IMG/VR virus record: IMGVR_UViG_3300049914_000251
Location: 49,819 to 113,818 of that record
Reading direction: 5' to 3' (one strand)
DNA: 64,000 nucleotides
Source of the DNA: a virus
Shown: in pieces, positions 3,147 through 64,000 of the stretch
Layout: each line of letters opens with the position of its first letter
How positions within the stretch are numbered: position 1 is the first letter of the stretch
The notes under the pieces: model-generated
The model's input: only the letters and a program-made list of their open reading frames with translations
Told to the model about the DNA's origin: nothing
Database searches by the model: none
Position numbers and translations under genes: made by a program

Positions 3147-3154
3147 AAAATAAG

Positions 3155-3226: not shown

Positions 3227-3229
3227 ATG

Positions 3230-28517: not shown

Positions 28518-30473
<1,956 letters not shown>

Positions 30474-33177: not shown

Positions 33178-34626
33178 TTAGACTGTCTTCAAATCGGAGA
33201 TCTTGGCCTGCTTCCTCACGTCTAAGCAGCGAAGCTCAGCGTAGGTGAAGAACATGCCCTTGATCCCGAGCATGTCGTTCTGTAGGTAATCTCTCGACTC
33301 GAAGTACCTAGTCATTGATGCTACAGCCAGCTCTAACCACCGCGTATCGAGCACGAACACGTCGCACCCACCAGCGGTAAGAGTATGAGCACCGGCAGAG
33401 TAGTCATAGCCTTTCTTCATATCCACATCGGGGAAGAAGGGAATTCCACGATAGGTTGCCAGTTGGAAACCAGCCTGGAAACCTGGGAGAGTAGCCTCTC
33501 CACCCCTCTTGACCTGGAATGAAGCCTCAGGCATATATCGACGCTGTGCCTGCAGCAATTGGTCTACCCTGTCCAGCTGATCAAAACCGGAAAGTATGAT
33601 GTCAGGCTCTCCACCGGCTTCACGAACGTACCTAATGGCCTGATCGATCAGCTCAGTTTCAAGATATCTGGTTACACCAGCATTCCCCACCACGTTTCCA
33701 GCGTTATACGCAGCAGCTGTTCTATTTACACCACTTGCTGTTAAAGTGGTGGCACCAGGAATCACTCCCCAGTTATAGCACTTTACACCCTCAGCCGGAT
33801 TACTTGCCAGCGAAAGGACGCGGCCATCATATTCTACTACATCGTCCAAAGCGGTAATTCCACCGCGACCGACCACCATATACTCGTTATCCTGAACGAG
33901 AGTAATAGGATCGGTTGGACCGGAACCATTCTGAGTTCCCACAGAAAGGAACGTATGTGCTCCAGTAGATCGATTTGGGGCCACGCAAATTGCCAGGTAA
34001 CTGCCGGAATTTGCACCGTTCTTATCAGTTGCAGTACCGTAGATTATGTCGCCTGGTCTTAGGGCAGTTGCCGGAGCAATTATAGCCGCACCACTTGTCA
34101 ACCCAGCTGTGGTGCAAACTACATAGTTGTTATCCAGAATGCCCCCGTTAATGTCTTTAATATGGTCAATAGATGCAAACTCCTGCTCAACCGCAAGAGC
34201 GTCACCAATTCCACCCTCTATCCCTGCCAGATACTGCGCCTGCTCAGTCACGCCGAGCATGGTCACAATAGCTCTAGGCGGAGACCATATCTGTTGGTAC
34301 GTAGACTTAGCAACAGCTGGCAGTGCAGCATTTTCAGCTACCGGAGCTGTGCTAGTATTACGCGCAGAACGGTTTCTCCATCCTACAGTAGTTCCAAACG
34401 GAACCTTCCGGAACAGGTTGAATGTTTTAACTTGATTATTTAAAATGTCCCAGACCTTCCGACCGTACGTCTGAGTGAAAAAGTCTGTATAAACCAACTG
34501 ACTTCCGCCAGCCGATAAACCAGTACCTTTAATCAGATCAAATACTGGAGGGAGCTGAGGCCCAAGGCCGTACCCTGCTTCAACTCTTGTTAGATATTCC
34601 ATCAGGTTCTCACCAAAAGTTGCCAT
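33178..34626 (-). CDS. Major capsid protein
   Basis: A 482-residue protein that follows the scaffold gene with a TAATG overlap. It has the HK97-fold layout: an N-terminal arm (NQVKTFNLFRKVPFGTTVGW), a spine and P-domain with GYTEQAQ-like residues (TMLGVTEQAQYLAGIEGGIG), a long insertion (about 180-290), then the A-domain pattern (IRYVREAGGEPDIILSGFDQ, RYFESRDYLQNDMLGIKGMF). The length is at the upper end for HK97 capsid proteins, partly because of the insertion. It would form the icosahedral shell. Confidence 0.85.
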   Translation of the reverse strand: MATFGENLMEYLTRVEAGYGLGPQLPPVFDLIKGTGLSAGGSQLVYTDFFTQTYGRKVWDILNNQVKTFNLFRKVPFGTTVGWRNRSARNTSTAPVAENAALPAVAKSTYQQIWSPPRAIVTMLGVTEQAQYLAGIEGGIGDALAVEQEFASIDHIKDINGGILDNNYVVCTTAGLTSGAAIIAPATALRPGDIIYGTATDKNGANSGSYLAICVAPNRSTGAHTFLSVGTQNGSGPTDPITLVQDNEYMVVGRGGITALDDVVEYDGRVLSLASNPAEGVKCYNWGVIPGATTLTASGVNRTAAAYNAGNVVGNAGVTRYLETELIDQAIRYVREAGGEPDIILSGFDQLDRVDQLLQAQRRYMPEASFQVKRGGEATLPGFQAGFQLATYRGIPFFPDVDMKKGYDYSAGAHTLTAGGCDVFVLDTRWLELAVASMTRYFESRDYLQNDMLGIKGMFFTYAELRCLDVRKQAKISDLKTV

Positions 34627-41126: not shown

Positions 41127-41287
41127 GACTTACTCCTAATACCACTGACAGATTTTAACAGCTCGCACTGTAATATCCAAGACAGCGCCCAGCAAACCTC
41201 TTTGGGAGACAGTTTCAACTCCTCCCTACCTGCCTTGACAGTGTTCTTCAACCACTTCTGAAACTCTACCAAGCCCGGCTCTGCCAT
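41123..41287 (-). CDS. Small helical protein (54 aa)
   Basis: ATG 41285-41287 behind GAGG, inside the end of the papain-like gene (22-nt overlap), and its TGA overlaps the ATG of the kinase-like gene. The product begins MAEPGLVEFQKWLKNTVKAG and is probably helical. The tight overlaps on both sides argue for a real, coupled gene. Function unknown. Confidence 0.55.
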   Translation of the reverse strand: MAEPGLVEFQKWLKNTVKAGREELKLSPKEVCWALSWILQCELLKSVSGIRSKS

Positions 41288-46729: not shown

Positions 46730-48472
46730 TTATAGCGACTGCTCAGGATATATACCTTTGGGGTTATTCGCATCTAATCCCGTAATAGGTTTAGACACCT
46801 CGGATTTCTTTTCTTTCGGGCCCTCACACTCAGCACATTCTCCAGTCGGACCCAAAGACCTCAGCTCCTTCCAACAAGTTTTACACGTGCCATAACCCCT
46901 GGCTGCCTTCTCCAGTTCATACAGCACTACAGCTTTCTCCAATCCCAATGCCTCGACTCTCTTCAACGGAACTCCTTGAACCCAGCCTTTCCCACCGTAA
47001 TTCTGTGCCACTACTACAAACTCCCCATGTGCAGGAATCAGAATTATCTCTCCTAAATCAGGCAAAGGTTCTCCAACCATAAAACTCGCTCTAGCAGTTT
47101 CGCCTACCCTCAAGGCCTTGCGCCATCTGGCTTGCAGAACATCCTTTACCTCTCCGGCCTTTTCTTTCTCACCCCCAACGGCCTCTTTAAAGGCTTCAGG
47201 ATCTCCAGCATGTAAACGATCTGTCAGGCCTCCTACGGCGTGTAATTTCTCCTCACCCTTACTCTCCTTAGGAACATCCTTCTTAGGTACTACTTTCGCC
47301 TGCGGCATTACTGATTTAACTCCCAAAATACCGCCCACATTTAAAATCTGGCCTATCACCTTATGCATTATCTCATAACCAGAATAGCTTTCTACGGCTT
47401 TAGCTTCTCCTCTCTTAGCAGCTTCCTTCCATTTAGCCATTCCCGACTCAGCCCCTTTCATGGCATGCCACAGTTGCTTCTCAGATAGGTCAGCCTTCAC
47501 ACCAGCCACATCACCTTTACGATACGCCCCTATTGCCTTGCCTAACATTATCTTATCAAGACGATCATCCCTTACCTCGTGAGCTAAAGGCCAAAGGTGT
47601 TTCGGCTTAGGCACCACTAATTTCTCATGCGTCAACAATCTTTCCTTGTTTTGAGGAGGTGCTCCTCTAACTACACTTCGCGCTTCACGATAAGCATCCC
47701 GGGCTGCCACTAACCCAATATCAAACCTTGCTCTTGCGACCTTCAAAATTTCAAGCATATCAGGATCACTGGTAGCCTTAATACTATCCACCATAAACTT
47801 AGCCAGCGCTTCCTTTTCATCCGGTTTCAAATCAAAATACTCTTTATTATACTTCCTAGGCTCAGGCTCGACCGCAACAGGATGTCCTTTAGGTAGCTCC
47901 ATACCCATTTTCTCCATGACAAATCTCTGTGCTTTGAGCGGCAAATCTTCCATCTTTATAGCCTGCCCTAATTGCCCATAGGTAATCTTATTACCGTAAT
48001 CCCCAGCATACTGACCAAACCCATTAGGAGCGTAAGGATCCTCATCAAACCCGTAAACGCTACCATCAGGAGTAATTAGAGTATATCGATCTACTGCCTT
48101 ACCTGGCCCCTCATCAAATATTCTCGGTCCTTTGGCTTCTTCGGCCTCCCGTGCTTTAATCCTTTCGGCCTCCCGTGCTTTAATCCTTTCATACTCGGCT
48201 ACCCGTAAATACTTTATTTCAGGCTTAGGAGCTATTTCTTGACCCCCAGCAGCTCCTGGAACTTTCGCAGGTTCAACTATCCTAGCCCCTTCTGGCAGCT
48301 TCTCGCCCTCTTTCATCCACCTGTGAGACTTAAAAGGTACTGCTCCACGATGTACTATAACTTCAACCAGATTATATCCTGGTTTACCCGGATTACTCCA
48401 CCCGGCAAGTTCCAATTCGATATCCTTCTCCAATTCCTTTATAACAAGCTGCTTCTCCAATGATAGTTCCAT
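46730..48472 (-). CDS. Head-region protein with N- and C-terminal LEK motifs (580 aa)
   Basis: Begins MELSLEKQLVIKELEKDIEL, continues with PGYNLVEVIVHRGAVPFKSH and RWMKEG, and near the C-terminus has LGLEKAVVLYELEKAARGYG followed by a zinc ribbon (CKTCWKELRS, CAEC). The middle is helical and charged, with a duplicated YERIKAREAERIKAREAEEA stretch and a region VGGILGVKSVMPQAKVVPKK that could be a kinase/nuclease-like fold remnant. It looks like a modular head protein with attachment tags at both ends. No enzymatic domain recognised. Confidence 0.55.
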   Translation of the reverse strand: MELSLEKQLVIKELEKDIELELAGWSNPGKPGYNLVEVIVHRGAVPFKSHRWMKEGEKLPEGARIVEPAKVPGAAGGQEIAPKPEIKYLRVAEYERIKAREAERIKAREAEEAKGPRIFDEGPGKAVDRYTLITPDGSVYGFDEDPYAPNGFGQYAGDYGNKITYGQLGQAIKMEDLPLKAQRFVMEKMGMELPKGHPVAVEPEPRKYNKEYFDLKPDEKEALAKFMVDSIKATSDPDMLEILKVARARFDIGLVAARDAYREARSVVRGAPPQNKERLLTHEKLVVPKPKHLWPLAHEVRDDRLDKIMLGKAIGAYRKGDVAGVKADLSEKQLWHAMKGAESGMAKWKEAAKRGEAKAVESYSGYEIMHKVIGQILNVGGILGVKSVMPQAKVVPKKDVPKESKGEEKLHAVGGLTDRLHAGDPEAFKEAVGGEKEKAGEVKDVLQARWRKALRVGETARASFMVGEPLPDLGEIILIPAHGEFVVVAQNYGGKGWVQGVPLKRVEALGLEKAVVLYELEKAARGYGTCKTCWKELRSLGPTGECAECEGPKEKKSEVSKPITGLDANNPKGIYPEQSL

Positions 48473-49349: not shown

Positions 49350-52300
49350 CTAGAACCCCATTGTTATATAGCTGCAATCATAAGTATTTGCTGCTACTCT
49401 CCACAAAATAACATCATACACACCTGCATTCTGAGTCAAAGAACTTAACGTAGTATTACCTGCCCACGTGAAAGTACCACCACCACCAGTCTTCGCCCAT
49501 GTTATTGCCCTAGCTGTAGCATCTGCCGACTTAATCAATCTTACCCTACACATGCAATCTACACCAGGATCAGTGATAGAAATTGCACATGCCTGATCAA
49601 CTGTACCTGAATGTTGATTTGAAGATGACATATCAAAAGTATGAGAAGCACCTAAATCACCATGTGCTGTAATAGCGGTTATAATACTGTAAAAAGTTGC
49701 CGGAGTACCAGCTGCTCCAGTATCTCCCTGAACGCCATCGCCCTGAATTCCTGTGTCACCTTGACTGCCGGTATCACCTTTGGCTAAAAATGAACCGGTA
49801 TCACCCTGGATTCCTGTGTCACCTTGAACTCCTGTGTCTCCAGCGACTGTAGAATCTGCTCCAGTATCGCCCTGGATACCAGTATCTCCAGCGACTGTAG
49901 AATCTGCTCCGGTGTCACCTTGACTGCCGGTGTCACCAGTTATGCCCGTGTCACCAGCGACTGTAGAATCTGCTCCAGTATCACCCTGAATACCCGTGTC
50001 TCCCTGAACTCCTGTATCTCCAGCGACTGTAGAATCTGCTCCAGTATCTCCCTGAACGCCTGCCCCTGTATCGCCCTGAATTCCTGTGTCACCTTGAATT
50101 CCTGTATCTCCAGCGACTGTAGAATCAGCTCCAGTATCACCCTGGATTCCTGTATCACCCTGGATACCTGTATCACCAGCTACATTTGAATCAGCTCCCG
50201 TATCGCCCTGGATACCAGTATCGCCCTGGATGCCTGTATCTCCAGCGACTGTAGAATCAGCTCCGGTGTCACCCTGGATTCCTGTATCACCCTGAATTCC
50301 TGTATCACCAGCTACAGTTGAATCAGCTCCTGTATCACCTGTTATGCCTGTGTCTCCCTGGATTCCTGTGTCACCCTGAATTCCTGTATCTCCAGCGACT
50401 GTTGAATCAGCTCCAGTATCACCCTGGATTCCCGTGTCACCCTGGATTCCCGTGTCTCCAGCGACTGTAGAATCTGCTCCCGTATCGCCCTGAATACCCG
50501 TGTCTCCCTGAACTCCTGTATCTCCCTGGATACCTGTATCACCCTGAATACCCGTGTCTCCCTGAATTCCGGTGTCTCCCTGAATTCCGGTGTCTCCCTG
50601 AATTCCGGTGTCTCCCTGAATTCCGGTGTCGCCAGTTATACCTGTATCTCCCTGGATACCTGTATCTCCAGCGACTGTTGAATCAGCTCCAGTATCACCC
50701 TGGATTCCCGTGTCACCAGCCATGCCCGTATCGCCCTGGATACCAGTATCGCCCTGAATACCCGTGTCACCCTGAATTCCTGTATCACCAGCTACATTTG
50801 AATCAGCTCCCGTATCGCCCTGGATACCAGTATCGCCCTGGATACCAGTATCTCCAGCGACTGTAGAATCTGCTCCGGTGTCACCTTGACTGCCGGTGTC
50901 ACCAGTTATGCCCGTGTCACCAGCGACTGTAGAATCAGCTCCAGTATCACCCTGGATTCCTGTGTCACCCTGGATACCTGTATCCCCAGCGACTGTTGAA
51001 TCAGCCCCTGTATCGCCCTGAATTCCTGTATCTCCCTGGATACCTGTATCTCCCTGGATACCTGTATCGCCCGTGATGCCTGTGTCTCCCTGAATTCCTG
51101 TGTCTCCCTGAATTCCCGTGTCACCCTGGATTCCCGTGTCTCCCTGAATTCCCGTGTCACCCTGGATACCTGTATCTCCAGCGACTGTTGAATCTGCTCC
51201 GGTGTCACCCTGGATACCAGTGTCTCCAGTTATGCCCGTATCACCCTGAACGCCTATGCCAGTATCACCCTTCCCGCCTAAGAAAGAAAGATTTACTATA
51301 ACCCCATCCCCGTTACTAAAAGGTGGTGTTGTAAAAGACTCGATATAGTCAACATTAAACACCATCCACGAAGTGTTGTCAACAAAACCTGTTATCCAAG
51401 CGTCCCAAAACCTACTTGCACCGTTGTTCTGATTAACTAATTTAGCAATAGGAGAATCACCTTGTGATAAGGCATATACAATAGTTTGCCAAAAAGCCGT
51501 CCTGTTATTGCTATCAGCATCTACCATACTGACAAAAATCTTAGTTACCCACATTTCTACTGCATTATTAAATCTTAAATTACCACTACCTGGATTTGAT
51601 TCAGTCAAAGTATCATCAAACAAATACCTTGATGAAAAACCAGCATACACACCTTGAATTCCCGTGTCTCCTTGAACCGTAGAATCAGCTCCCGTATCAC
51701 CCTGGATTCCTGTATCTCCAGCGACTGTAGAATCAGCTCCAGTGTCACCCTGGATACCTGTATCTCCCTGGATTCCTGTATCTCCAGCGACTGTTGAATC
51801 AGCTCCAGTGTCTCCCTGAATTCCCGTGTCACCTTGCTCTCCCGTATCCCCAGCGACTGTTGAATCAGCTCCAGTATCACCCTGGATACCTGTATCGCCC
51901 GTGATGCCTGTGTCTCCCTGAATTCCTGTGTCACCCTGAATTCCTGTGTCACCCTGAATTCCTGTGTCTCCCTGAATTCCCGTGTCACCCTGGATTCCCG
52001 TGTCACCAGCTATGCCCGTGTCACCCTGGATTCCCGTGTCACCCTGGATGCCTGTATCTCCAGCTACATTTGAATCAGCTCCGGTGTCTCCTTGAACTCC
52101 GGTGTCACCCTGGATACCTGTATCGCCCGTGATGCCTGTGTCACCCTGAATTCCTGTGTCACCCTGAATTCCTGTGTCTCCCTGAATTCCTGTGTCACCC
52201 TGGATTCCTGTGTCACCAGCTATGCCCGTGTCACCCTGGATTCCCGTATCGCCCTGAATTCCCGTATCACCGATTATTCCGGTGTCACCTTGAATACCCG

Positions 52301-53036
52301 TATCTCCCTGGATACCTGTGTCACCTTGAATACCCGTATCTCCCTGGATACCTGTGTCACCTTGAATACCCGTATCTCCCTGGATACCTGTGTCACCTTG
52401 ACTGCCTGTGTCACCTTTGTCACCTTGACTGCCTGTGTCACCTTGACTGCCTGTGTCACCTTGACTGCCTGTGTCACCTTTGTCACCTTGACTGCCTGTG
52501 TCACCTTGACTGCCTGTGTCACCTTGACTGCCTGTGTCACCTTGACTGCCTGTGTCTCCCTGGATACCTGTATCTCCCTGGATACCTGTATCTCCCTGGA
52601 TACCTGTATCGCCTTGAATTCCAGTATCGCCTTGAATTCCCGTGTCACCCTGAATTCCCGTGTCACCCTGTATTCCTGTATCACCGTCTAATCCCGCTGT
52701 GCCTGTGTCGCCTTTTACTCCACTACTCGCATCATACCACTTCGTACCATCATAAACCAAAGTCAGCATAAGCAGAATTTCATCCTGCTCTGACCGAAGA
52801 TAAATATTATCTACATTATGTTTAACCGTAATTACATGTGCCGGATTTGCTGCCTGAAGAACTATAATATCACCTGAAAGATAACTGTTACTAATGGTCG
52901 TCAGATCATCAGATACAGCAGCTCCTTCTGAATCAACGGAATAGAACATTCCCCAATCATCAATACTTATAGCTCCTGCTGCTATTACCTTTGCCGCAAA
53001 AGGAGACGACGCAAATACTTTTCTATAAGTTCCCAT
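49350..53036 (-). CDS. Collagen-like fibre protein II (1228 aa)
   Basis: ATG 53034-53036 (M4 of the longest frame) chosen because GGAGG is 9 nt upstream and the ATG overlaps the TAA of the previous gene. Layout: an N-terminal domain of about 100 residues (RKVFASSPFAAKVIAAGAIS), a collagen tract of GDT/GIQ/GSQ triplets, a non-collagen domain of about 120 residues (51280-51645, FSSRYLFDDTLTESN), a second collagen tract with many GADSTVA breaks, and a C-terminal head domain (ITAHGDLGASHTFDMSSSNQ). Head-fibre trimer is the best guess, because it lies between the portal and protease genes rather than among tail genes. Confidence 0.85.
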   Translation of the reverse strand: MGTYRKVFASSPFAAKVIAAGAISIDDWGMFYSVDSEGAAVSDDLTTISNSYLSGDIIVLQAANPAHVITVKHNVDNIYLRSEQDEILLMLTLVYDGTKWYDASSGVKGDTGTAGLDGDTGIQGDTGIQGDTGIQGDTGIQGDTGIQGDTGIQGDTGIQGDTGSQGDTGSQGDTGSQGDTGSQGDKGDTGSQGDTGSQGDTGSQGDKGDTGSQGDTGIQGDTGIQGDTGIQGDTGIQGDTGIQGDTGIQGDTGIIGDTGIQGDTGIQGDTGIAGDTGIQGDTGIQGDTGIQGDTGIQGDTGITGDTGIQGDTGVQGDTGADSNVAGDTGIQGDTGIQGDTGIAGDTGIQGDTGIQGDTGIQGDTGIQGDTGIQGDTGITGDTGIQGDTGADSTVAGDTGEQGDTGIQGDTGADSTVAGDTGIQGDTGIQGDTGADSTVAGDTGIQGDTGADSTVQGDTGIQGVYAGFSSRYLFDDTLTESNPGSGNLRFNNAVEMWVTKIFVSMVDADSNNRTAFWQTIVYALSQGDSPIAKLVNQNNGASRFWDAWITGFVDNTSWMVFNVDYIESFTTPPFSNGDGVIVNLSFLGGKGDTGIGVQGDTGITGDTGIQGDTGADSTVAGDTGIQGDTGIQGDTGIQGDTGIQGDTGIQGDTGITGDTGIQGDTGIQGDTGIQGDTGADSTVAGDTGIQGDTGIQGDTGADSTVAGDTGITGDTGSQGDTGADSTVAGDTGIQGDTGIQGDTGADSNVAGDTGIQGDTGIQGDTGIQGDTGMAGDTGIQGDTGADSTVAGDTGIQGDTGITGDTGIQGDTGIQGDTGIQGDTGIQGDTGIQGDTGIQGDTGVQGDTGIQGDTGADSTVAGDTGIQGDTGIQGDTGADSTVAGDTGIQGDTGIQGDTGITGDTGADSTVAGDTGIQGDTGIQGDTGADSTVAGDTGIQGDTGIQGDTGADSNVAGDTGIQGDTGIQGDTGADSTVAGDTGIQGDTGIQGDTGAGVQGDTGADSTVAGDTGVQGDTGIQGDTGADSTVAGDTGITGDTGSQGDTGADSTVAGDTGIQGDTGADSTVAGDTGVQGDTGIQGDTGSFLAKGDTGSQGDTGIQGDGVQGDTGAAGTPATFYSIITAITAHGDLGASHTFDMSSSNQHSGTVDQACAISITDPGVDCMCRVRLIKSADATARAITWAKTGGGGTFTWAGNTTLSSLTQNAGVYDVILWRVAANTYDCSYITMGF
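49697..52725 (-). repeat. Collagen triplet repeat tract II
   Basis: About 3 kb of imperfect 18-bp units encoding [12 protein letters not shown], interrupted at 51280-51645 by a globular domain. The section 52390-52560 consists of nearly identical GDTGSQ units, which marks recent expansion. Related to tract I at 28948-30443. Confidence 0.9.
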
Positions 53037-53653
53037 TATACCCATACCTCCAGTTGACCATCAAGACCTTCTCTAAACCCCTGTGATATCAAAACATTAC
53101 CACCAGGAACGGCTCCGCTAGTACGCAACCTAACATCGTACTCAACATCATCATAAAACAACCCCTCTCCACTCGGAACATAAACAACAGCAAAACCATA
53201 AACATCGCCTGTTCCACCTCCTCCACCTGTACCTGTATCACCTTTAAATCCTTGTGACCCTTGGACACCGGTGTCACCTTTCCTTCCCGTTATCAATAAC
53301 CTGCCTAACCTGTCATGTACCTCAAGACTATCCCCGTCCGTCCTCAAAGAATAACCAGCGCCCAGGCTTAAATCAAAGGGTATAAGCGGCCTTCTCCATC
53401 CGTCTTTAGGTAATAGATAAAGATTCACAGTAACGGGGCCGCTGTCTATATTAACAATAATAACAAGGTCTGCTTTTGTAATAGCAGTTGCCACATACAA
53501 AACCCCCGGCTCTTCTCCTGCATCCCTCATTGGAATAAACCCGTTAGTAATTTCCTTCCAAACATCACCGTCCTTTCCATAAATAGAAAATTGAAGGGTT
53601 GCAGCTTTTGAAGCAGATCCTGTCATACTATCACCCGGGTTTAAAATCATCAT
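53036..53653 (-). CDS. Capsid/fibre-base protein with short collagen insert
   Basis: A 205-residue protein starting MMILNPGDSMTGSASKAATL. It is a paralogue of the next gene: both have LNPGD near the N-terminus, YLLPKDGW, IPF.L.LGAGYSL, and a closing beta strand. In this copy a collagen segment is inserted after LLITGRKGDTGVQGSQGFKG, followed by a unique C-terminal domain (VYGFAVVYVPSGEGLFYDDV). It probably anchors the collagen fibre to the capsid. Overlaps the fibre gene by a TAATG. Confidence 0.65.
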   Translation of the reverse strand: MMILNPGDSMTGSASKAATLQFSIYGKDGDVWKEITNGFIPMRDAGEEPGVLYVATAITKADLVIIVNIDSGPVTVNLYLLPKDGWRRPLIPFDLSLGAGYSLRTDGDSLEVHDRLGRLLITGRKGDTGVQGSQGFKGDTGTGGGGGTGDVYGFAVVYVPSGEGLFYDDVEYDVRLRTSGAVPGGNVLISQGFREGLDGQLEVWV

Positions 53654-54054
53654 GATGTCACCTGTAACTGCCCCAACTTATCATAAACATTAACAAAATC
53701 ACCATTAGTATGAAGAGAATACCCGGCTCCTAATTGCAACGCAAACGGAATTATCGACTTAATCCACCCGTCTTTAGGTAATAGATACAATTCAGTTCTA
53801 CGCGAAGTTACAGAATCCGTATTTACTGCTATGACAAGATAAATAAGTACAGAAACCACATCATCAGGAGCTGTGTACAAATCTCCAGGATCTATTACCC
53901 CAGGATCTGGATTTTCCTCTGGAAGAAATCCCTCCCCTAACCTTTTATATGTCGTACCGCTGCTTCTAATCACAGCCCCAAATATCAAATACGTCACGAT
54001 ACTGGCTCTGGAAGCACACCCCTGAAGTTTATCCCCGGGATTCAATACGAGCAT
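53650..54054 (-). CDS. Capsid/fibre-base protein, collagen-free paralogue
   Basis: A 134-residue protein, MLVLNPGDKLQGCASRASIV, with YLLPKDGWIKSIIPFALQLG and DFVNVYDKLGQLQVTS. Its conserved segments match the 205-residue gene at 53036-53653 but the collagen insert and C-terminal domain are missing. Four-base overlap with that gene. The pair looks like a tandem duplication in which one copy gained the fibre-joining part. Confidence 0.6.
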   Translation of the reverse strand: MLVLNPGDKLQGCASRASIVTYLIFGAVIRSSGTTYKRLGEGFLPEENPDPGVIDPGDLYTAPDDVVSVLIYLVIAVNTDSVTSRRTELYLLPKDGWIKSIIPFALQLGAGYSLHTNGDFVNVYDKLGQLQVTS

Positions 54055-54096: not shown

Positions 54097-54651
54097 TCAC
54101 TTCTTTACTTGCTTGGACTTGTCAGACCCTGTAGGATCGACAGCCTCTGCTGGTTGTGCAATATCAGGCACTTCCGAAGGCTTAACATCGCCTTTAGCAT
54201 GAACCTGCTCCGGATCCTCTGACTTTTTCATTGATGATGTACTTATCTGTTCCCCACCCATCATATAGCGATCTTTAGGCTTAACCGCCTTGGATCTAGG
54301 CCCTCTGAGCAGACCGGTTTCGGAACTTTCTGCATATCCCCTTAAGGTTCCACCCGGATATTGTTTCTCTCCACCCGGCTTTGCCATTTCTCCAGAAGGA
54401 ACTTTCTTCTCCAACTCATGCAGCACTACAGCCTTCTCGAGATCCAATATCTCAGCCTTCTCGAGATCCTTTGCGATATCTGCTTCAAACTCCTTCTCAT
54501 ACTCAGCACATTTCTCCTCATCAGCTCCTGACTCAGAAGGCCACTGACCTGTAATTTTCTTATGCACCGTAGCACAGTATGCCTGTGGATTAGATTTATC
54601 TTTGTTTGCAGCCACACATGCAGCGAAGTTCTTATACTCCCCGAACGGCAT
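54097..54651 (-). CDS. LEK-motif protein with small N-terminal head domain (184 aa)
   Basis: Behind AGGAGG. The first 40 residues (MPFGEYKNFAACVAANKDKS, then YCATVHKKITGQWP) match a short conserved domain seen in phage head-region proteins. Residues 66-82 read AEILDLEKAVVLHELEK, a full LEK motif; the remainder is low-complexity, rich in Lys, Pro and Ser. Such a layout, small domain plus tag plus flexible tail, suggests an internal or scaffold-associated head protein. Function unknown. Confidence 0.55.
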   Translation of the reverse strand: MPFGEYKNFAACVAANKDKSNPQAYCATVHKKITGQWPSESGADEEKCAEYEKEFEADIAKDLEKAEILDLEKAVVLHELEKKVPSGEMAKPGGEKQYPGGTLRGYAESSETGLLRGPRSKAVKPKDRYMMGGEQISTSSMKKSEDPEQVHAKGDVKPSEVPDIAQPAEAVDPTGSDKSKQVKK

Positions 54652-54720: not shown

Positions 54721-55281
54721 CTACATTAACTTCTTTATAGCCGTTATATCCAAACAGTTTACTACACCATCTCCGTTAACGTCAGCTTCTGATGTCACCG
54801 TCACGAGTTCGAGTATCATCTGTTCGACTAAGGCGATATCCGTTGCGCCTACTAAACCATCTCCATCGACATCGCCAACAACAGAGATGGATAATGCGTT
54901 TCCCAGCCACGTTGCCGGTATCTGAACTCCCTGATTATTTCCTAAGATGCCATTTGAATAGGCTAGGACACTTGTTTTCTTAAAAGAAACTACCTCAAAA
55001 ATCACCTCTGCCAAATACCCTGCTCCGCTTACTCCTGCCAGTTCCGGCAAATTATTTATTATTCTCAATTTGCCATTACCAAAATCCCGCCACATATCTA
55101 TAGGAACAACAGTAGTTCCTATAATACCATCTTTTAATTGCACTATAGACAGCACGGCAGCATCAAAATCGATATCATAATTAGCAGCATCAAAATCCAC
55201 AACGCCATCCACCGTAACTTTAGCACTGAACTGATCTCCTACCTTTACCTTACTTGGAATTGCCAGATTTACTACCGTCAT
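54721..55281 (-). CDS. Cohesin-dockerin protein
   Basis: A 186-residue protein. Residues about 1-132 form a cohesin-like beta-sandwich (VGDQFSAKVTVDGVVDFDAA, FDAAVLSIVQLKDG, GAGYLAEVIFEVV). Residues 136-186 are a type I dockerin with two calcium loops: GDVDGDGLVGATDI (136-149) and ADVNGDGVVNCLDI (166-179). Cohesin-dockerin pairs assemble cellulosomes and other complexes; one protein with both can self-associate or bind host scaffolds. No signal peptide or anchor, so it could be virion-bound and attach to host surface complexes or link head fibres. Rare in phages. Confidence 0.8.
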   Translation of the reverse strand: MTVVNLAIPSKVKVGDQFSAKVTVDGVVDFDAANYDIDFDAAVLSIVQLKDGIIGTTVVPIDMWRDFGNGKLRIINNLPELAGVSGAGYLAEVIFEVVSFKKTSVLAYSNGILGNNQGVQIPATWLGNALSISVVGDVDGDGLVGATDIALVEQMILELVTVTSEADVNGDGVVNCLDITAIKKLM

Positions 55282-55289
55282 TTATCCTC

Positions 55290-55514
55290 CTAGCCCTGCT
55301 TGGGTTGATTATTACCATTGATACGTTTAATAGAATCATTGATTACTTTATTAGCAAGGAATCCGGTAATTATAACGCCTACCCAAGTTCCTATCATGGG
55401 TAATACCTGTTCAACTTCTAATTTACCTTGAAAGGCCATTATACCCATGATTGAGAACGACCCCACCAGAATAATTCCCCCGAACAAAGCAGTCGCGTTC
55501 CAATTCTCAAACAT
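55290..55514 (-). CDS. Holin-like two-TM protein
   Basis: A 74-residue protein with two probable membrane segments: ATALFGGIILVGSFSIMGIM and VLPMIGTWVGVIITGFLANK, joined by a short charged turn, and a basic C-terminus. Size and topology fit a class II holin. It lies between the cohesin-dockerin gene and a LEK-motif gene rather than with an endolysin, so a structural membrane role cannot be excluded. Confidence 0.6.
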   Translation of the reverse strand: MFENWNATALFGGIILVGSFSIMGIMAFQGKLEVEQVLPMIGTWVGVIITGFLANKVINDSIKRINGNNQPKQG

Positions 55515-55523: not shown

Positions 55524-55919
55524 CTATCCTGTCGAATTAGAAGGCCATCCCATTGCCTTCTCCTCTTTAGGTTTATTCTCAGCTGCCAATTCTTTCTTTG
55601 ACGGCAACCTGTGTTTCAAATCAGGATGACTCCTCAACTGCCTGTAGGGATCCTCTACATCTCCATAAGGATACATCCTACTAGGCTCTGTCTCACCCTT
55701 AAAATGAGATGACATGTCACCCTCTTTTGCTATGACCTTCTGCTCTTTCGGCTCCTCTCCGGTCTGAGGATTTACATACCGTACTGCCTGAATATCATGT
55801 TTACCGCTCTTGACTGTAATCAGCCTAGGCTCAACATTAGTTAAATGTTTAAAATGGCCTACAACCACTCCTTTGCACAGCTCATACAAAACTATTGCTT
55901 TCTCAAGTTCCTTATTCAT
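55524..55919 (-). CDS. LEK-motif protein (131 aa)
   Basis: ATG 55917-55919 overlaps the TGA of the zinc-ribbon gene, and GGAGG precedes it. The product begins MNKELEKAIVLYELCKGVVV, the LEK motif at the very N-terminus, followed by DIQAVRYVNPQTGE, a variant of the RGG-RWM motif, then a low-complexity charged tail. This is the simplest example of the tag pair with little else. Probably a head-region protein. Confidence 0.55.
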   Translation of the reverse strand: MNKELEKAIVLYELCKGVVVGHFKHLTNVEPRLITVKSGKHDIQAVRYVNPQTGEEPKEQKVIAKEGDMSSHFKGETEPSRMYPYGDVEDPYRQLRSHPDLKHRLPSKKELAAENKPKEEKAMGWPSNSTG

Positions 55920-56095
55920 CAAACCTCCACTCTACGTGTTCCACACTTGGCACAATAAATGTCCTTACGCTGCATTTCTCTGTCACAAACGAGACAGCGT
56001 AAACTTCGTGGATCCACAACAAGAAAATCCCCGCATCTGAAACAGTACTCATCTGCTTCAGGCCTAGTCTGCTTACACCTGCTACAAAACTTCAT
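55919..56095 (-). CDS. Double zinc-ribbon protein (58 aa)
   Basis: ATG 56093-56095 overlaps the stop of HNH gene 3; the TGA overlaps the ATG of the next gene. The 58-residue product starts MKFCSRCKQTRPEADEYCFR and has four CxxC pairs (CSRC, CFRC, CLVC, CAKC), two complete zinc ribbons of the type found in zinc-ribbon adaptors. Function unknown. Confidence 0.65.
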   Translation of the reverse strand: MKFCSRCKQTRPEADEYCFRCGDFLVVDPRSLRCLVCDREMQRKDIYCAKCGTRRVEV

Positions 56096-56706
56096 TAAAC
56101 CCCTTTCCAGAGCCTAATAAGCCTCAGGTCCTCTTTCGTCTTCTCAACATGACAATCCTTGCTCATCACCTGCAAATTTGTCCATGCATCCGTTCCGCCT
56201 AACGCTCTGGGTATAAGATGATCACACTCCAATTTGCTAACATCGGTTTCACCACAAACTACACATGGTTCCTTAAGAACATAAATAAGAAAAGCTGCTT
56301 TATGTTTCCACGTGTTCTTATGCCTCTCTAAGCAACCTTTGATGTACAAACGACCCTTCTCAGTTTGTAAATAACGCCTATGCGCCTCACCATGCAATTT
56401 CCTAGCCCTCTCAGTCGAAGTATATTGACTACGTTTTTCTGGATGCTCCCTGCCCCAAGTATTTGCCCTCGATATACACTCCTCCGCATGTCGTTCATAA
56501 TAAGCCTTATCTCTTTGAGGCTTTCGAGTTTTAGCGTTACCATCGGGATGGATCTCATTACTCCGACTAGAATCAATCTGATTACCCATCACCCTACGGA
56601 CGCAAGAACTGGTACATCCCACAGTTCTAGCCGTCAACCTGATACCATACCCTTTATAAAGGTACAGAAACCTTATCAAAGCATGATTATAAACCCTATT
56701 TCTCAT
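56095..56706 (-). CDS. HNH homing endonuclease 3
   Basis: A 203-residue protein from ATG 56704-56706 overlapping the TGA of the portal gene. An N-terminal HTH-like segment (RLTARTVGCTSSCVRRVMG) could aid site recognition. The HNH core is CVVCGETDVSKLECDHLIPR and NLQVMSKDCHVEKTKED, close to endonuclease 2. The middle resembles endonuclease 1 (LQTEKGRLYIKGCLERHKNT against EKGIEWYRERYSVYG), so the three share ancestry. It occupies the junction between portal and downstream head genes. Confidence 0.75.
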   Translation of the reverse strand: MRNRVYNHALIRFLYLYKGYGIRLTARTVGCTSSCVRRVMGNQIDSSRSNEIHPDGNAKTRKPQRDKAYYERHAEECISRANTWGREHPEKRSQYTSTERARKLHGEAHRRYLQTEKGRLYIKGCLERHKNTWKHKAAFLIYVLKEPCVVCGETDVSKLECDHLIPRALGGTDAWTNLQVMSKDCHVEKTKEDLRLIRLWKGV

Positions 56707-59700
56707 CAAATCCCCTTTGGCATCCTCGCTAAACTGCATCGCTGTCTATATACGTCGTTTTGGCCCGTAGTAGGACTGATAGGATTGCGCCACAGCCTCT
56801 TAATCTCCTCGAATGTGTATGGGTTCCCTCTCTCGAATTCCAAGCTCACAGCCTTAACTCTTTCATCATGTGTAGCGATCCAGTAATAACCGTACTCATC
56901 TTTAAACGGATCTTGCTCCCATGCTAACAGCCTTCCCTCATTACTTATCTTACTAATCTCTGTCCTAACTATCAGCTCTGCCCGAGTATCCGCAATATCT
57001 CCGACCTCTTTTATCTTCTTCTTCATTGCCGGAAGGCTAAACTGCACTTCTCCTTTGAAGGCATCTCTTATTACTCCAGCTATTGCCTGATGCTGTTCCC
57101 TGCCCATGTCCTTAACGGCCTCCAATATACCATTCGGATTCTTGATTATCCAGTTATATCCCAGCCTATGCATCGTTCCACCTAAAGCTACTCCGCTTTC
57201 CTTCATACCAGCAGCAAGACCTGTCTCGTAAATGCTCCATGATATCGGTGTTGCCGCTGCAACTGTGGTTGTAGCATACTTCTTAATAAAAGCATTCAAC
57301 CGGTCCTGAACTTCCCCTTCAGTCATTTCTGGTTTCATTTCATCCAAGAACTTATTTAACTCTTCCCGGTAATTACCCTTGATAATCTTCAAAAGCTCAG
57401 GTTCGTACTTCTTAGCTCCTTTCGGCAGCTTACCTTCCAGCTTTTTCCGAACATCATCAGGCAACTCAGATACCGCCTTCATCAAATCAAAAGGGAGTAT
57501 TCTTAACCCCATGCCTTCGAGATGCTTGGACAGCTCCGAAACATATCCCGGATACCCCAATTTGATCCTGCCTTCTCCTACCCCCTTCACCAAAACTTCG
57601 CACACGCGAGATGTCAATTCTGGATCCTTAGTTCGGACTATGCCATTTCTATCTATATGTCCCAAACGTTCATCTCCACGGTAAATATCATAGCCTACAG
57701 ATTTAAAAACCCCGGCCGAAAGTCTTTTAGGGTCTATTTTAGGTTCAAGAGAACCCTGCTTATATGACTCTTCTACGTATATACGTGCATCTCTTTCTTT
57801 AGGAAATCCTATTACGGCCGGTGCCTTATATCCAGAATGTTTAACAGTAACTCCATAACCATCTCCTCGCTCCGCAATACTCATTTCAACAGCAGCGCCG
57901 CCGATTTTCCCTTTGAAATTTGTCTTGTTCTCATCAACCGTTACGCCTTTTTCCTCCCACCAGGGCTTCTCAGGTTCCGGTCCTTCTGGCTGTTCCTCTG
58001 AGTGCTCTCCTGTCCGGTGTTTCTGAACCTCAGGATGAAACTGGTTCTCATAACCACCATGCCCCTGTACCGCATGCCTATGTTCCTTTACACCAGCCTT
58101 ATTCATCCTAGTCTCAAGAATCACGCATGCAGATTTATTCAGCTGTCCAGATAAAGCTAATTCCAACTCTTTCTTTACCTCCTCTTTCTTATTTTTTTCT
58201 GCCTCAGAAGTTTCCTGTGCCGGAGGAAGTTGTTCCAGCATCTGTTCAGGAGTAGCAGCCTCACCTTCCCTTGGTGCTGGCAACGTTGCCTCTCCACCCA
58301 TTTCCCCCTCAGGTACTCCACCTTCTGCCCCAGGCGGCATCCCAGCCCCACCTTCTGCCCCAGGCGGCATCCCAGCCATCATTGGAGGCGCTGGTGGTTT
58401 CGGCTTTCTACTAAACACAAACTGATCTCTATCATCGAGAGAAACCTCAAATCCCATATTAACCATTTGCATAGCTATCGCAGTCTTTGCTGACCTCTCT
58501 TCCAATAACAACATCTCTGTCTTCTCTTCTGGTATAGCCAACCTTATCACAAAGTCCGTAACTCCAAAAGATTCCAATATCTTGGGTAATACCTTTAGAT
58601 TCCAAGACTTCTGAGCCGACTCTACCACACGACCCATCACTACCAGCTGATTAGTAGAAGTATCCCGGCCTCCCACCTGAGCAGGAGAACCCATGAAAAT
58701 CCTGGACACTCCCCACATACCAGCGATAAAATCACCTATCCGGTCGGAAATATTCTGGAAATCCATCTCCTGGAAATTCGAGCCAAAGCGGATATACTCC
58801 GTCTTGCCCTGACCGGTTCTCTTAGAAACCGCTACCCAGGCGATGTGATGCGGATTCTCCCGCAGTTTCATCTCCTGGTCCTTAATACGCTGCTCCAATC
58901 CTAGCGGGTCATCCGTTACCGTAACGATTACTCCAGGTGGTATAATTCTCTCGTAGAAATAATCATATAACCACCTGTCCATGCCCAACATTGTCAGAGC
59001 TTTCTCATACACCGACAAAATTGGCGAATACCCGTATGTCTTGCTCGGAGCGTATCTGCTCCAGTGAATAACTTCCTTCCTAATATAGAACCTGTACTTG
59101 CCACGATACAGATACCTGTACATGGCCGGGTACATCTTTCTGCCGCACTCCGGACATACAGGCGGAATCTCTGCTGCCTGCACCTTCTCTGACTCCGGAA
59201 CAGCTACTTGTGGAAACTCCTGATATCCCGGTGCTACCACGTTGGAAGAAGCCTCATCTCTCCTGTGCATAATACAAACATAATGCGCTCTCTCCGGCAT
59301 ACCATTGGCATCCAGGTCAAACTCGATGTTGCAGGGATCCATCCTTAGAATCTGCTTCATCCTCTCCTTTACAGGAGGTTCCTTATCATCAACGTTAAAG
59401 AAATACTCCTTGACCAACAACATGAAACCGTCATCCACTATATTCACATCGTCTTCGCACTCCCGGCAAACATCCTCTAATGACTGATCAAAATCATTGG
59501 CTTTTATCATAAATTTCATGAAGTATTTCAACTGCATCGGATCAGGATCCCTGGTATCCCACTCCTTAGTTACAATACCTTCTTTATTGCGCTCTATGCA
59601 GTTAGGACACTTCAGCGTCTGATGATCAAATTCGCTCTTACATTCCGGATTCATGCAAATCTTAACAAATTTAGGAACAGGAGTATCAAACCCCCGCCTG

Positions 59701-60011
59701 AAAATCTCGTTTCTTATGTTAATTACCGAAGCTCTGATTGGTGTAACAGCGAAGGCTATCGTGTACAGGTTGTCCAAACGTGCCCTTCTGGAATAGTACA
59801 ACTGCTGTCGAGCCTTAAATCCAATATCCTCTACGCCTATTGGTGACGTAGCCGACCTTCTGGTATCAGAATCCATAAACTCTTTTACCTTCTTCTCAAC
59901 AGCCGTCATCGAAGACCCCGAAGGCCCTTCTTTAGACTTACTCAATTCCATAAGATGCGTCCTGTCTGGCATCATAGGTGTTCTCGTTATGTCCCATCCC
60001 AATACCTTCAT
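56706..60011 (-). CDS. Portal protein fused to MuF-like head morphogenesis domain
   Basis: An 1101-residue protein. Residues about 1-560 are a portal with the clip/stem pattern (PIRASVINIRNEIFRRGFDT, then VIHWSRYAPSKTYGYSPILS, IADFIAGMWGVSRIFMGSP-like helices) plus two zinc ribbons (CMNPECKSEFDHQTLKCPNC and CPECGRKMYP). A Pro/Gly/Glu-rich linker (about 565-640) and a middle domain follow. The C-terminus from about 915 has MuF features (ADTRAELIVRTEISKISNEG, YYWIATHDERVKAVSLEF) seen in SPP1 gp7-type proteins that are injected or packaged. The fusion couples portal assembly to MuF incorporation at a fixed 1:1 ratio. Confidence 0.8.
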   Translation of the reverse strand: MKVLGWDITRTPMMPDRTHLMELSKSKEGPSGSSMTAVEKKVKEFMDSDTRRSATSPIGVEDIGFKARQQLYYSRRARLDNLYTIAFAVTPIRASVINIRNEIFRRGFDTPVPKFVKICMNPECKSEFDHQTLKCPNCIERNKEGIVTKEWDTRDPDPMQLKYFMKFMIKANDFDQSLEDVCRECEDDVNIVDDGFMLLVKEYFFNVDDKEPPVKERMKQILRMDPCNIEFDLDANGMPERAHYVCIMHRRDEASSNVVAPGYQEFPQVAVPESEKVQAAEIPPVCPECGRKMYPAMYRYLYRGKYRFYIRKEVIHWSRYAPSKTYGYSPILSVYEKALTMLGMDRWLYDYFYERIIPPGVIVTVTDDPLGLEQRIKDQEMKLRENPHHIAWVAVSKRTGQGKTEYIRFGSNFQEMDFQNISDRIGDFIAGMWGVSRIFMGSPAQVGGRDTSTNQLVVMGRVVESAQKSWNLKVLPKILESFGVTDFVIRLAIPEEKTEMLLLEERSAKTAIAMQMVNMGFEVSLDDRDQFVFSRKPKPPAPPMMAGMPPGAEGGAGMPPGAEGGVPEGEMGGEATLPAPREGEAATPEQMLEQLPPAQETSEAEKNKKEEVKKELELALSGQLNKSACVILETRMNKAGVKEHRHAVQGHGGYENQFHPEVQKHRTGEHSEEQPEGPEPEKPWWEEKGVTVDENKTNFKGKIGGAAVEMSIAERGDGYGVTVKHSGYKAPAVIGFPKERDARIYVEESYKQGSLEPKIDPKRLSAGVFKSVGYDIYRGDERLGHIDRNGIVRTKDPELTSRVCEVLVKGVGEGRIKLGYPGYVSELSKHLEGMGLRILPFDLMKAVSELPDDVRKKLEGKLPKGAKKYEPELLKIIKGNYREELNKFLDEMKPEMTEGEVQDRLNAFIKKYATTTVAAATPISWSIYETGLAAGMKESGVALGGTMHRLGYNWIIKNPNGILEAVKDMGREQHQAIAGVIRDAFKGEVQFSLPAMKKKIKEVGDIADTRAELIVRTEISKISNEGRLLAWEQDPFKDEYGYYWIATHDERVKAVSLEFERGNPYTFEEIKRLWRNPISPTTGQNDVYRQRCSLARMPKGI

Positions 60012-60028: not shown

Positions 60029-61909
60029 CTACGGCCTCGCCATGTTAGGTGCGGCTACTGGTCCATTTTCTGGCTCATCCACAGCTACCCGCTGTGATTT
60101 CTTCTTATTATACCAATCAGCCACTACCGTACTGTCTTTATAGATCTCAGCCAGCGCGTCTGCTTCTTTACCATACTGCCATCTTTGATTCATCTGCGCT
60201 TTATCTAAAACAGCCTTAGCCTCAACCCGGGTCTTTCCAAATATCTGCTGCACGTCACCTACTGTCCTGGCTTGAGCTGTTTTTCTGGCATCTATCTCAG
60301 CAGCTACTGCCAGCATCCAGGAAAAGAAAGCGTCACCGTGACCTTCCTCAGTAGATGCCGATTTCAAATCGTTACGAACCTGGATGATCTGAGACTTCTG
60401 CCTGTCATCATCTAACAGCCTAACGTGCCTGTGATTTACCTCTCCCTCAAGTGCCGTGGCCATTTTAAGTTTTCCGCGAGCGTCTGTAGTTTTACTATCC
60501 CGAACACTGAACACTACCGGTTTACAAATTGTAGGCTCTAAACCACGATCTTCCAACTCTCCTCGGGTGTTATCCCAATAAAGAGAATCTATCCCAAAGA
60601 CCTCGATCATTCGGTTCACATATTCTACCTGTGCCGTATAATCCATGTCTTCGAGATAAATAGAACAAATCTGAATCTTGGTCTCCCCTTCCTTCCTGAA
60701 TACTGAAAGATGACTAGGATGCTGTTTCTTACCTATGTCCATCCCAGCAATTATTACTTCATCTGGATTACTTCTAATGTACGGATACTCCATAGTGCAA
60801 CGTGGCAAACTCTTATCTATAATACCCTCAATGTCCCCGACCTTAAAATAACTGTCAGACAATGATGCGGGCTGACACATGAACTCTCGCGAATATGCTT
60901 TTGCCTTAATAGCATCTCTTTGCTCATGCAACCAAGCTTTATCATAATTAGCCCATAAACAGTCATATCGCCAGCCCGTTGCGATAGACTCTCCCTCTAC
61001 TTCCACATCAGTGAACCTGTTAACAGCGTTCACACCTATTTTACCAGCGTCTACCCCAGCCATAACGAAATCAACATAATCAGACGCGCCGATATCGAAA
61101 ACACACCCATCCTCAGCCGGTAATTTACGCCACAAATAGCCCTTTCTCTTTTTCACGCTGTGCAGAATATCCCTTGGATCTTGTGGAGTACCTACTATAG
61201 TAAGAGAACCACCTTTTACCGGCAAACTTGCATGTGCCCCATTATACGTCTTCTCGATACGCTGCAACTCTGACGGAGTAGCCAAACCTTCCGTAGAGTC
61301 TGGCAAAATATCATCCAATATCACAAAAGCAGGGTGCAGTCCACGAACAGCTGTAAATATTCCTGCTCCGAGAACCTCTATCCGCCTCTCCCCTAGTTGA
61401 TAATGAAGGCTCTTCACGGATTGCTTGTTCAGATCCTTAAACTTCGTAAAGAACCTATTCTCAGAAATAAGACCCCTGATAATACTAAGATGATGAGCCG
61501 CCAGATCGTCCCTGTATGACACATACATACCAAAATTAAATCTCAACATCCTCCACATCGTTTGAGCATGCCCGCAAATAGTAGATTTCAACGAATAACG
61601 CGGACCTATTTCACAAACGCGGGCCTTACTTTGTATATCCCTGCACCATATGTGATGATGCCAGTTCAACTCAAACTTAAATAACGATTCCTTTTCATAA
61701 GAACACGGAAGAACGTACATACAAAAATTTTCAAAATCATAAATAGATGCCTTAAGGATTTCCTTATCCTTAACCTCCAACCCCTCAAACAGAACGGGAT
61801 CAATATGAGCTACCGCCTCTTCCACGTCTTCCGGATGACTCATACCATGTTCCAGTCTGTCGCTTATATCACCTATACCCTTGATTCCGTCCTTAGTATC
61901 CTTAGTCAT
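60029..61909 (-). CDS. terL: Terminase large subunit
   Basis: A 626-residue protein. The ATPase has a Walker A variant GPRYSLKST (102-110), preceded by the adenine-binding FELNWHHHIWCRD, and Walker B FVILDD (195-200) with the coupling motif GTPQDPRD. The nuclease domain starts near IIAGMDIGKK (first metal Asp), then ends with HGDAFFSWMLAV. The protein packages DNA into proheads and cuts concatemers. Length is in the upper range for TerL because of a C-terminal extension (AKAVLDKAQMNQRWQYGKEA). Overlaps the upstream gene by 8 nt. Confidence 0.88.
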   Translation of the reverse strand: MTKDTKDGIKGIGDISDRLEHGMSHPEDVEEAVAHIDPVLFEGLEVKDKEILKASIYDFENFCMYVLPCSYEKESLFKFELNWHHHIWCRDIQSKARVCEIGPRYSLKSTICGHAQTMWRMLRFNFGMYVSYRDDLAAHHLSIIRGLISENRFFTKFKDLNKQSVKSLHYQLGERRIEVLGAGIFTAVRGLHPAFVILDDILPDSTEGLATPSELQRIEKTYNGAHASLPVKGGSLTIVGTPQDPRDILHSVKKRKGYLWRKLPAEDGCVFDIGASDYVDFVMAGVDAGKIGVNAVNRFTDVEVEGESIATGWRYDCLWANYDKAWLHEQRDAIKAKAYSREFMCQPASLSDSYFKVGDIEGIIDKSLPRCTMEYPYIRSNPDEVIIAGMDIGKKQHPSHLSVFRKEGETKIQICSIYLEDMDYTAQVEYVNRMIEVFGIDSLYWDNTRGELEDRGLEPTICKPVVFSVRDSKTTDARGKLKMATALEGEVNHRHVRLLDDDRQKSQIIQVRNDLKSASTEEGHGDAFFSWMLAVAAEIDARKTAQARTVGDVQQIFGKTRVEAKAVLDKAQMNQRWQYGKEADALAEIYKDSTVVADWYNKKKSQRVAVDEPENGPVAAPNMARP

Positions 61910-62674: not shown

Positions 62675-62876
62675 TACAGCCACCAATTTCCGACACTTCC
62701 TCTTTTACTGAATACACATGCTTAAAATGTTCCTCCAGCGGAGTATTTATATAATCCCCACAGCCCTTATCCAGCGAATGAATGATTTTATGATGCAGTT
62801 TGCACCTGTCACCTGCAGTTAGCTCCACCTTATAATGATCGCACAGACCGCATTTCTTATCTGCCACAGCTATCAC
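62667..62876 (-). CDS. Cys/His-rich small protein (69 aa)
   Basis: A 69-residue protein that starts MIAVADKKCGLCDHYKVELT and contains CGLC, a later Cys, and a His pair (LHHKII), a probable zinc-binding module. The C-terminal half is helical and ends in Gly-Cys-Asn-Ala. Overlaps both neighbours. Function unknown; part of the zinc-rich packaging cluster. Confidence 0.6.
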   Translation of the reverse strand: MIAVADKKCGLCDHYKVELTAGDRCKLHHKIIHSLDKGCGDYINTPLEEHFKHVYSVKEEVSEIGGCNA

Positions 62877-63946
62877 ACTTTCTCACACTTAACAGGTTCT
62901 CCCGGCCTCTCAGTAGCTACCTTACTCCTGTAAATATCAGGGGCCGCCTCTGCTTGGGGCATCTTGTTCTTTGCCGGATCTGGCTTCTCTGATTCCTCTC
63001 CTTCTTTGGGCATCTCAGGAACAGGCTCCGGTGGGTTGCTAATATCTTGTATAGTAGGCATCTGAGCCTCTTCACCCGGTTGAGCACCTAAACCACCGAC
63101 TTTAACCAGTTCAAACAATACCAGAGCTTTCTCTAAATCAACCTCTTTCTTAAATATTCTCTCCCACAACTTCTTACCAATACCTGCCTTCCTCTCCGGA
63201 GGTGTCCTGACAGGAGAAAGCCCCTTCGCACTAGGTGGTCTTCTGCTACTCTCTGGTGGTGGTGGTTTCCTATAAAATCTTTTTGGTAATTCCTCTTTAC
63301 CCCAAGGTTCGGGCACAGGCGTAACAAAGGGCCTTCCCCGCTGTCTACCAGCTGCCAATATAGGAGCCAGTTCATCCCAATTACCTTTGTCCTGCTGTAA
63401 ACGAGTAGATTGTCCGTAATGAATTACTTTATCGGTCGGCTTAATCTCATGATGTGCTACCCACCGACGATCTGACTTACCCTCATCATCAGTAGTATCA
63501 ACCAAAGCGTATCCGGGTGCTCCTGCAAAATACTGGTTTCCTGTGTCTTCTTTAGAAATCTCCCCATCCTTTTCCTTATAAGGAGCAAGCCCATGTTCCT
63601 TCCTTTGATGCGCTATCAATTCAGAATAAGCCTTTGAACGGACTTGACAATCTCCCTGCCTACATCTTAAATGTGTAGTTGAAGTAGGACTCATATAAGT
63701 ATCGTGTTTGATCTCCGGATGCTTTTCCTTTATATGCTCACCCTTAGTATATAAACGACCGTCGTCATGATACCCTACATGCTTCTCACAATAATCGCAC
63801 CATTCGGCAGAAACCTTGTTGTGCCTTTTCTGTTGTCCACCCGGCTTCCAATTCTTATCAGGATCGTACCACTTCTTAAGATCCTCTATGACCTTTCGCT
63901 CCTTTTCCAGATCTCGTAAAACTAAAGCTTTATCAATATCGCCCAT
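62873..63946 (-). CDS. C2H2-like zinc-finger protein with two LEK motifs
   Basis: 357 residues from ATG 63944-63946, preceded by GGAGG; upstream in-frame residues are probably part of another gene. It begins MGDIDKALVLRDLEKERKVI (LEK motif). Two C2H2-like fingers follow: CDYCEKHVGYHDDGRLY with a His pair in HIKEKH, and CRQGDCQVRSKAYSELIAHQ ending in RKEH. A Pro/Arg-rich linker leads to a second LEK motif, KEVDLEKALVLFELVKV, then an acidic tail. Classical C2H2 fingers are rare in phages. DNA binding during packaging is possible. Confidence 0.6.
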   Translation of the reverse strand: MGDIDKALVLRDLEKERKVIEDLKKWYDPDKNWKPGGQQKRHNKVSAEWCDYCEKHVGYHDDGRLYTKGEHIKEKHPEIKHDTYMSPTSTTHLRCRQGDCQVRSKAYSELIAHQRKEHGLAPYKEKDGEISKEDTGNQYFAGAPGYALVDTTDDEGKSDRRWVAHHEIKPTDKVIHYGQSTRLQQDKGNWDELAPILAAGRQRGRPFVTPVPEPWGKEELPKRFYRKPPPPESSRRPPSAKGLSPVRTPPERKAGIGKKLWERIFKKEVDLEKALVLFELVKVGGLGAQPGEEAQMPTIQDISNPPEPVPEMPKEGEESEKPDPAKNKMPQAEAAPDIYRSKVATERPGEPVKCEKV

Positions 63947-64000
63947 GTTACCTCCGCTGAATTGTTCCGCGCTCTTAACAAACCCCGTCCCCATCTTCTC

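Follow-up and report, generated by a model that had tools for sequence, protein, structure and literature searches.

The cohesin-dockerin gene and its genomic setting

The window analysed here is the whole 64,000-nt stretch at positions 49,819 to 113,818 of the 113,818-bp IMG/VR virus record IMGVR_UViG_3300049914_000251, and coordinates are those of the window unless the contig or another locus is named. A gene for a 186-aa protein lies on the minus strand at 54721..55281 (stop codon included), as supported by the ORF call, Pfam and codon usage. The protein is phage-encoded and consists of an N-terminal cohesin, a short linker and a C-terminal type I dockerin. Its start codon is an ATG, with no other start between it and the preceding in-frame stop, and a Shine-Dalgarno sequence, AGGAGG, can be read from the sequence 4 bases before it (55286..55291, minus strand). 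The codon usage was typical of the phage (−1.110, against a mean of −1.084 with a standard deviation of 0.049; 18th lowest of 79).

The gene sits within a compact same-strand structural operon, with the portal/gpF gene on one side and the genes for fibre, protease and capsid on the other. In the order of transcription it is preceded by the terminase large subunit (60029..61909, minus strand; phrog_38, E 6e-31), a fusion of the portal with a Mu gpF-like head-morphogenesis domain (56706..60011, minus strand; phrog_18178, E 1e-38, and phrog_2468, E 6e-9), an HNH ORF, a 132-aa protein and a 74-aa small membrane protein. The last of these (55290..55514, minus strand) ends 8 bases upstream of the cohesin-dockerin gene, has two hydrophobic segments by eye and had no match in PHROG. 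Downstream follow a Cys-motif head-module protein carrying a shared LEKAVVLHELEK peptide (54097..54651, minus strand; phrog_6439, weak) and two paralogous proteins that are 44% identical (53650-54054 and 53036-53653, together 53036..54054, minus strand), the second with a weak match to the tail fibre family phrog_3904. These lead to a 1231-aa collagen-like fibre protein (49350..53045, minus strand; Pfam Collagen, E 4e-94), and a second collagen-like fibre protein of the same phage is encoded at 28518-30473. The probable major capsid protein (33178..34626, minus strand) was recognised by a tblastn match to the HCTV-1 major head protein (E 6e-4, 25% identity over 34% of the query). The initial annotation had placed the gene among head fibre genes. 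Its phage context is borne out by these head-module neighbours, since portal-to-protease head-module genes and collagen-like fibre genes adjoin it, and "head fibre" is better kept as a putative description.

Comparison by k-mer and regex scan showed a short amphipathic peptide like DLEKAVVLHELEK, N-terminal or internal, in several head-module proteins (45051-45554, 46730-48472, 54097-54651, 55524-55922 and 62873-63994, and also 45563-46333), which is possibly a capsid or scaffold targeting tag. An analogous repeat was seen in the portal-related virus L133, where four or more adjacent head-module proteins have MSWKDIVK-type N-termini (ORFs 7363-8788 and elsewhere).

The contig belongs to a tailed phage whose replisome is of bacterial type. 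Its portal and capsid are distantly akin to those of haloviruses HCTV-1, HCTV-5 and HVTV-1 (the portal matched halovirus portals at E 2e-25), which raised an archaeal host, but this is disfavoured by PolA, RecA, DnaN, HolA, HolB and Ku, all of bacterial type. These proteins make a bacterium the most likely host, as judged from sequence. A Chloroflexota host had been raised by InlB-type repeats and PT-rich proteins, and a portal search of 400 genomes of that phylum gave no match. Ku does not discriminate between hosts, since it reached about 40% identity in two phyla alike. The genes for Ku and for an ATP-dependent DNA ligase of NHEJ type lie close together (contig 42575-45114; L004:2575-5114) and possibly form a viral end-joining system. 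We also observed an 826-aa DnaB-like helicase (7006-9486) with an intein-like insert, CQPEGEFVFTDGGFKKIEDVEIGDG, whose residues 341-489 weakly matched a polymerase II large subunit model, and an array of 21 tRNA genes (1653-3305). Two further proteins look surface-related by eye: a papain-like protease with an InlB-type repeat (41266-42360), and a secreted PT-rich protein (contig 19502-20659) with an InlB-like segment and, also by eye, a C-terminal hydrophobic segment.

The dockerin and cohesin modules

The type I dockerin module occupies residues 136-184 (54730..54876, minus strand), as indicated by Pfam, dockerin matches in the PDB and the helices of an AlphaFold2 (AF2) model. The Dockerin_1 profile (PF00404) matched these residues with 43.6 bits (E 3.3e-11, above the cut-off of 22.9), and a PDB sequence search returned type I dockerins at E values of about 1e-7 to 1e-5, among them the dockerin of C. 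thermocellum endo-xylanase Y (2ccl, E 2.3e-7). The two canonical calcium loops that had been read from the letters alone were both found complete: loop 1, DVDGDGLVGATD, at residues 137-148 (54838..54873, minus strand), and loop 2, DVNGDGVVNCLD, at residues 167-178 (54748..54783, minus strand). The Asp residues at Ca-ligand positions, D137 and D148 in the first loop and D167, D171 and D178 in the second, were invariant across an alignment of 27 sequences, and in the AF2 model one helix follows each loop (residues 146-156 and 176-185). No other such loops occur in the ORFs predicted for the 113,818-bp contig, and profile searches found one cohesin and one dockerin in the whole contig.

The module shares two DxDxDGxxxxxD loops and two helices with C. 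thermocellum type I dockerins (1ohz, 2ccl, 1daq; E down to 2e-7), but its spacer is shorter and its recognition positions are different. Classical dockerin recognition residues are Ser-Thr, whereas positions 10-11 of the phage protein read AT in the first loop and CL in the second. The symmetric recognition residues for dual binding that are typical of dockerins are thus absent by sequence. Asymmetric single-mode dockerins exist, so the type I dockerin call stands, but because the two repeats differ at these positions, binding to any given tested cohesin is not to be assumed.

The cohesin module covers residues 1-131 (54889..55281, minus strand) and was identified by Pfam, AF2 and Foldseek. 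The Cohesin profile (PF00963) matched residues 10-123 with 36.7 bits (E 5.7e-9, above the cut-off of 24.1), and the match was recovered also in a six-frame search of the contig. An earlier AF2 model built on a six-row alignment was weak (pLDDT 65) and gave only weak matches in a BFVD structure search; it was superseded by a model built without templates on a 27-row alignment that included homologues of the modules from bacterial proteins and from those of other phages. The final model had a mean pLDDT of 88.8 and a pTM of 0.76, with blocks of the cohesin module mostly at 78-93, and it showed a strand-rich beta domain followed by the two dockerin helices. In a Foldseek comparison of this model with the PDB, all but one of the 50 top-ranked matches listed were cohesins or modules resembling them (E down to 6.3e-10), and the sole exception was an adhesin domain at rank 46. 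The top match was the non-cellulosomal cohesin 2xdh of Archaeoglobus fulgidus (E 6.3e-10, TM 0.80 by target length), and cohesin 2vo8 of Clostridium perfringens reached TM 0.83 by target length. The initial annotation had proposed a cohesin-like beta sandwich at the N-terminus and named structure prediction as one check and the lack of a cohesin fold as a refutation; the check was run, and the predicted domain does have the cohesin fold.

Sequence identity to the solved cohesins was 13-19%, so the relation of the N-terminal module to them is distant, yet the predicted cohesin fold is a firm call. This low identity leaves some room for reading the domain as a generic phage Ig-like beta sandwich with an over-read cohesin label, since cohesins are themselves beta sandwiches and Ig-like domains are common on phage proteins. 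However, the Pfam cut-off for Cohesin was passed, nearly all of the best Foldseek matches listed were cohesins, and the domain adjoins a dockerin in the same way as in bacterial cohesin-dockerin proteins, which makes the Ig-like reading very improbable in our judgement. Chance is no serious explanation for the cohesin and dockerin matches in this ORF. The non-cellulosomal cohesins of A. fulgidus (2xdh) and C. perfringens (2vo8, 2jh2) are the best fold matches of the phage module, but they are parts of cellular proteins, while the phage one is virus-encoded and has no export signal.

Bacterial and viral relatives

The lack of a signal peptide, which had been noted before, was confirmed. The cohesin begins at the initiator Met, with no upstream in-frame start and no room there for a signal peptide. 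Among 15-residue windows that begin within residues 1-40, the highest hydropathy score was 1.17, against 1.96-2.25 in signal-peptide-like controls. Many secreted cohesin or dockerin proteins were found in several bacterial phyla, and those with the same cohesin-then-dockerin order came mostly from Candidatus Poribacteria, with many per genome. By eye, four of them (L047, L079, L043, L061) have signal-peptide-like N-termini. The secreted Poribacteria proteins (these four and L037) share with the phage protein the module order, the short linker between the dockerin repeats and 22-30% identity across both modules, but there the two modules are C-terminal or internal parts of larger signal-peptide-like proteins, whereas the phage protein is the two modules alone. 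Because it has no signal peptide and the same-order bacterial proteins have signal-peptide-like starts, the phage protein looks from sequence like a trimmed version of such secreted proteins that is made in the cytoplasm.

A cellulosome component was considered and rejected, as the phage protein has no signal peptide and the contig holds no other cohesin or dockerin. The host scaffolds to which the virion might bind had been called "cellulosome-type". That label is too narrow, because the predicted fold comes closest to a non-cellulosomal cohesin and the closest proteins of the same architecture found are secreted ones of Poribacteria.

The same cohesin-dockerin protein was not found among the viral contigs searched. 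A first genome scan with this protein alone gave no match, and single-protein scans of viral contigs with it, the terminase, the DNA polymerase and the capsid protein gave no relatives. It was also absent from 19 portal-related loci, many of which are haloviruses or short fragments, and very near relatives possibly lie outside the collection. No other cohesin was found in a phage head module in these searches.

That its closest relatives are parts of secreted bacterial proteins, and that the searches gave no viral orthologue, would fit a passenger gene, that is, a captured fragment of a secreted host cohesin-dockerin protein that lost its signal peptide and has no role in the virion. But the ORF is intact, with a strong ribosome site and phage-like codon usage, all Ca ligands are kept, the start falls exactly at the module edge, and the gene lies inside the compact structural operon. 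We therefore regard a mere passenger as unlikely.

Dockerins were found on proteins of other phages as well. One is carried by a distal tail protein, Dit (L027:5611-6252, phrog_33), one by a fibre encoded beside baseplate-type genes (L008:5848-7083), and three by endolysins (L010:5452-6366, phrog_3513; L011:2176-3219, GH25; L021:5551-6198, CHAP). Large putative tail proteins in L006, L009, L013, L014, L016, L017 and L028 have C-terminal dockerins; they were called tail proteins by eye, and PHROGs gave no match for the four tested. Dockerins on phage Dit, fibre, endolysin and putative tail proteins thus recur and are apparently little described. In these phages (L027, L008, L010, L011, L021, L006, L009, L013, L014) a dockerin is likewise phage-encoded, on structural or lysis proteins, but those records have no Pfam cohesin and the carrier domains are different.

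Several further candidates were rejected. Marine-looking viral loci (L018:1239-2024, L020, L024:5311-6168, L026:13-666) encode related proteins that join a beta-rich domain to a dockerin; complete copies have a visible signal peptide, and the genes around the L024 copy look T4-like by eye. By eye, L018, L024 and L026 seemed to combine a cohesin with a dockerin, but Pfam called only the dockerin in the two tested. A cohesin-dockerin gene in L123 probably lies in host DNA that flanks a provirus, as its neighbours are secreted cellular-type proteins. The six cohesin matches in G018 (L023) probably come from host or scaffoldin DNA that was called viral.

In the literature searched, which included few subscription journals, we found no description of a phage cohesin, and the texts seen present cohesin-dockerin pairing as a tool of cells. 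Phage dockerins were mentioned there only in passing, in two cases: gene 40 of VvAW1, by BLAST similarity (PMC3558961), and an E. coli phage protein with a dockerin-associated carbohydrate-binding template (PMC5967307).

A putative calcium-switched role on the virion

We propose that the protein may be a minor accessory or adaptor of the virion, acting as a decoration or an adhesin, with its place on the virion deduced from gene order; we take this for the likeliest reading and give it about an even chance. It draws on two modules above their Pfam cut-offs, a confident model of the cohesin fold and conserved Ca ligands. The absence of a signal peptide, when same-order bacterial proteins have signal-peptide-like starts, points the same way, and so do the position in the head module, the phage-typical codon usage and the fact that these are the sole cohesin and sole dockerin of the contig. 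Dockerins in structural proteins of other phages (the Dit of L027, the fibre of L008, the large putative tail proteins of L006 and L013) are also consistent with it. On the other side, the LEK peptide common to several head-module neighbours was absent from the protein, so the protein may not be packaged with them. There is no recognisable capsid-binding domain, no relative with the same gene turned up in the viral contigs searched, the portal-related viruses that were found lack it, and the recognition positions differ between the repeats.

Type I dockerins fold on binding Ca, and free Ca is scarce in the bacterial cytoplasm. As a virion accessory, the two-module adaptor, which is encoded in the head-assembly module and lacks an export signal, would be synthesised in the cytoplasm and would act outside the cell, on the particle or freed at lysis. 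Because its dockerin would need Ca to fold and the cytoplasm is Ca-poor, it would be inactive during assembly and become active once outside. There the dockerin would take up Ca and pair with a cohesin, and the cohesin could hold a dockerin. This possibly incomplete contig has no second cohesin or dockerin, so, barring a partner gene in a missing part of it, the partner would be either another copy of the same protein, giving head-to-tail chains, or host-type secreted proteins with cohesin or dockerin modules.

The first choice of partner is a specific version of the accessory reading, in which the Ca-poor cytoplasm keeps the dockerin unfolded and the pairing off until the cohesin of one copy can bind the dockerin of the next, and the putative pairing cross-links head fibres or clusters virions after lysis. 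One short protein brings both partners together, the contig offers no other partner for either of them, and collagen-like fibre genes are nearby. T4 Hoc offers a precedent for such a role, since this capsid fibre of Ig domains reportedly governs a reversible clustering of virions (PMC10385173). Hoc-type decoration fibres, as described there, likewise have beta-sandwich modules on a capsid fibre and a proposed role in sensing or clustering, but that description mentions no Ca module or plug-and-socket pair, and the phage protein in turn has no recognised capsid-binding domain. We hold self-assembly of this kind to be possible but rather doubtful.

The second choice, also a version of the accessory reading, is putative binding to the host surface, in which virion-borne modules latch onto dockerin or cohesin proteins on the host or its matrix and aid adsorption. 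The dockerins on structural proteins of other phages (L027 Dit, L008 fibre) would suit such a function, as would the many secreted cohesin and dockerin proteins of several bacterial phyla. But the portal search in the 400 genomes from the phylum of the Chloroflexi MAG gave no match and Ku identity was alike in two phyla, and we think this version improbable.

To have both halves of the lock in a single head-module protein of a phage is unusual, and at 186 residues the protein can be tested directly and cheaply. Cohesin-dockerin pairing is among the strongest natural protein couplings known and is widely used in engineering. Here it could serve the virion as a Ca-switched device that is off in the Ca-poor cytoplasm and, once outside, ties particles to one another or to dockerin or cohesin proteins on the host; this picture is tentative, and we would not yet bet on it. 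If it is true, then together with the dockerins on phage Dit, fibre and endolysin proteins it would mean that phages have repeatedly taken up the coupling of the cellulosome for adsorption or assembly. The presence of both halves in one phage head-module protein, and of dockerins on the tail and lysis proteins of other phages, suggests that viruses too use cohesin-dockerin coupling.
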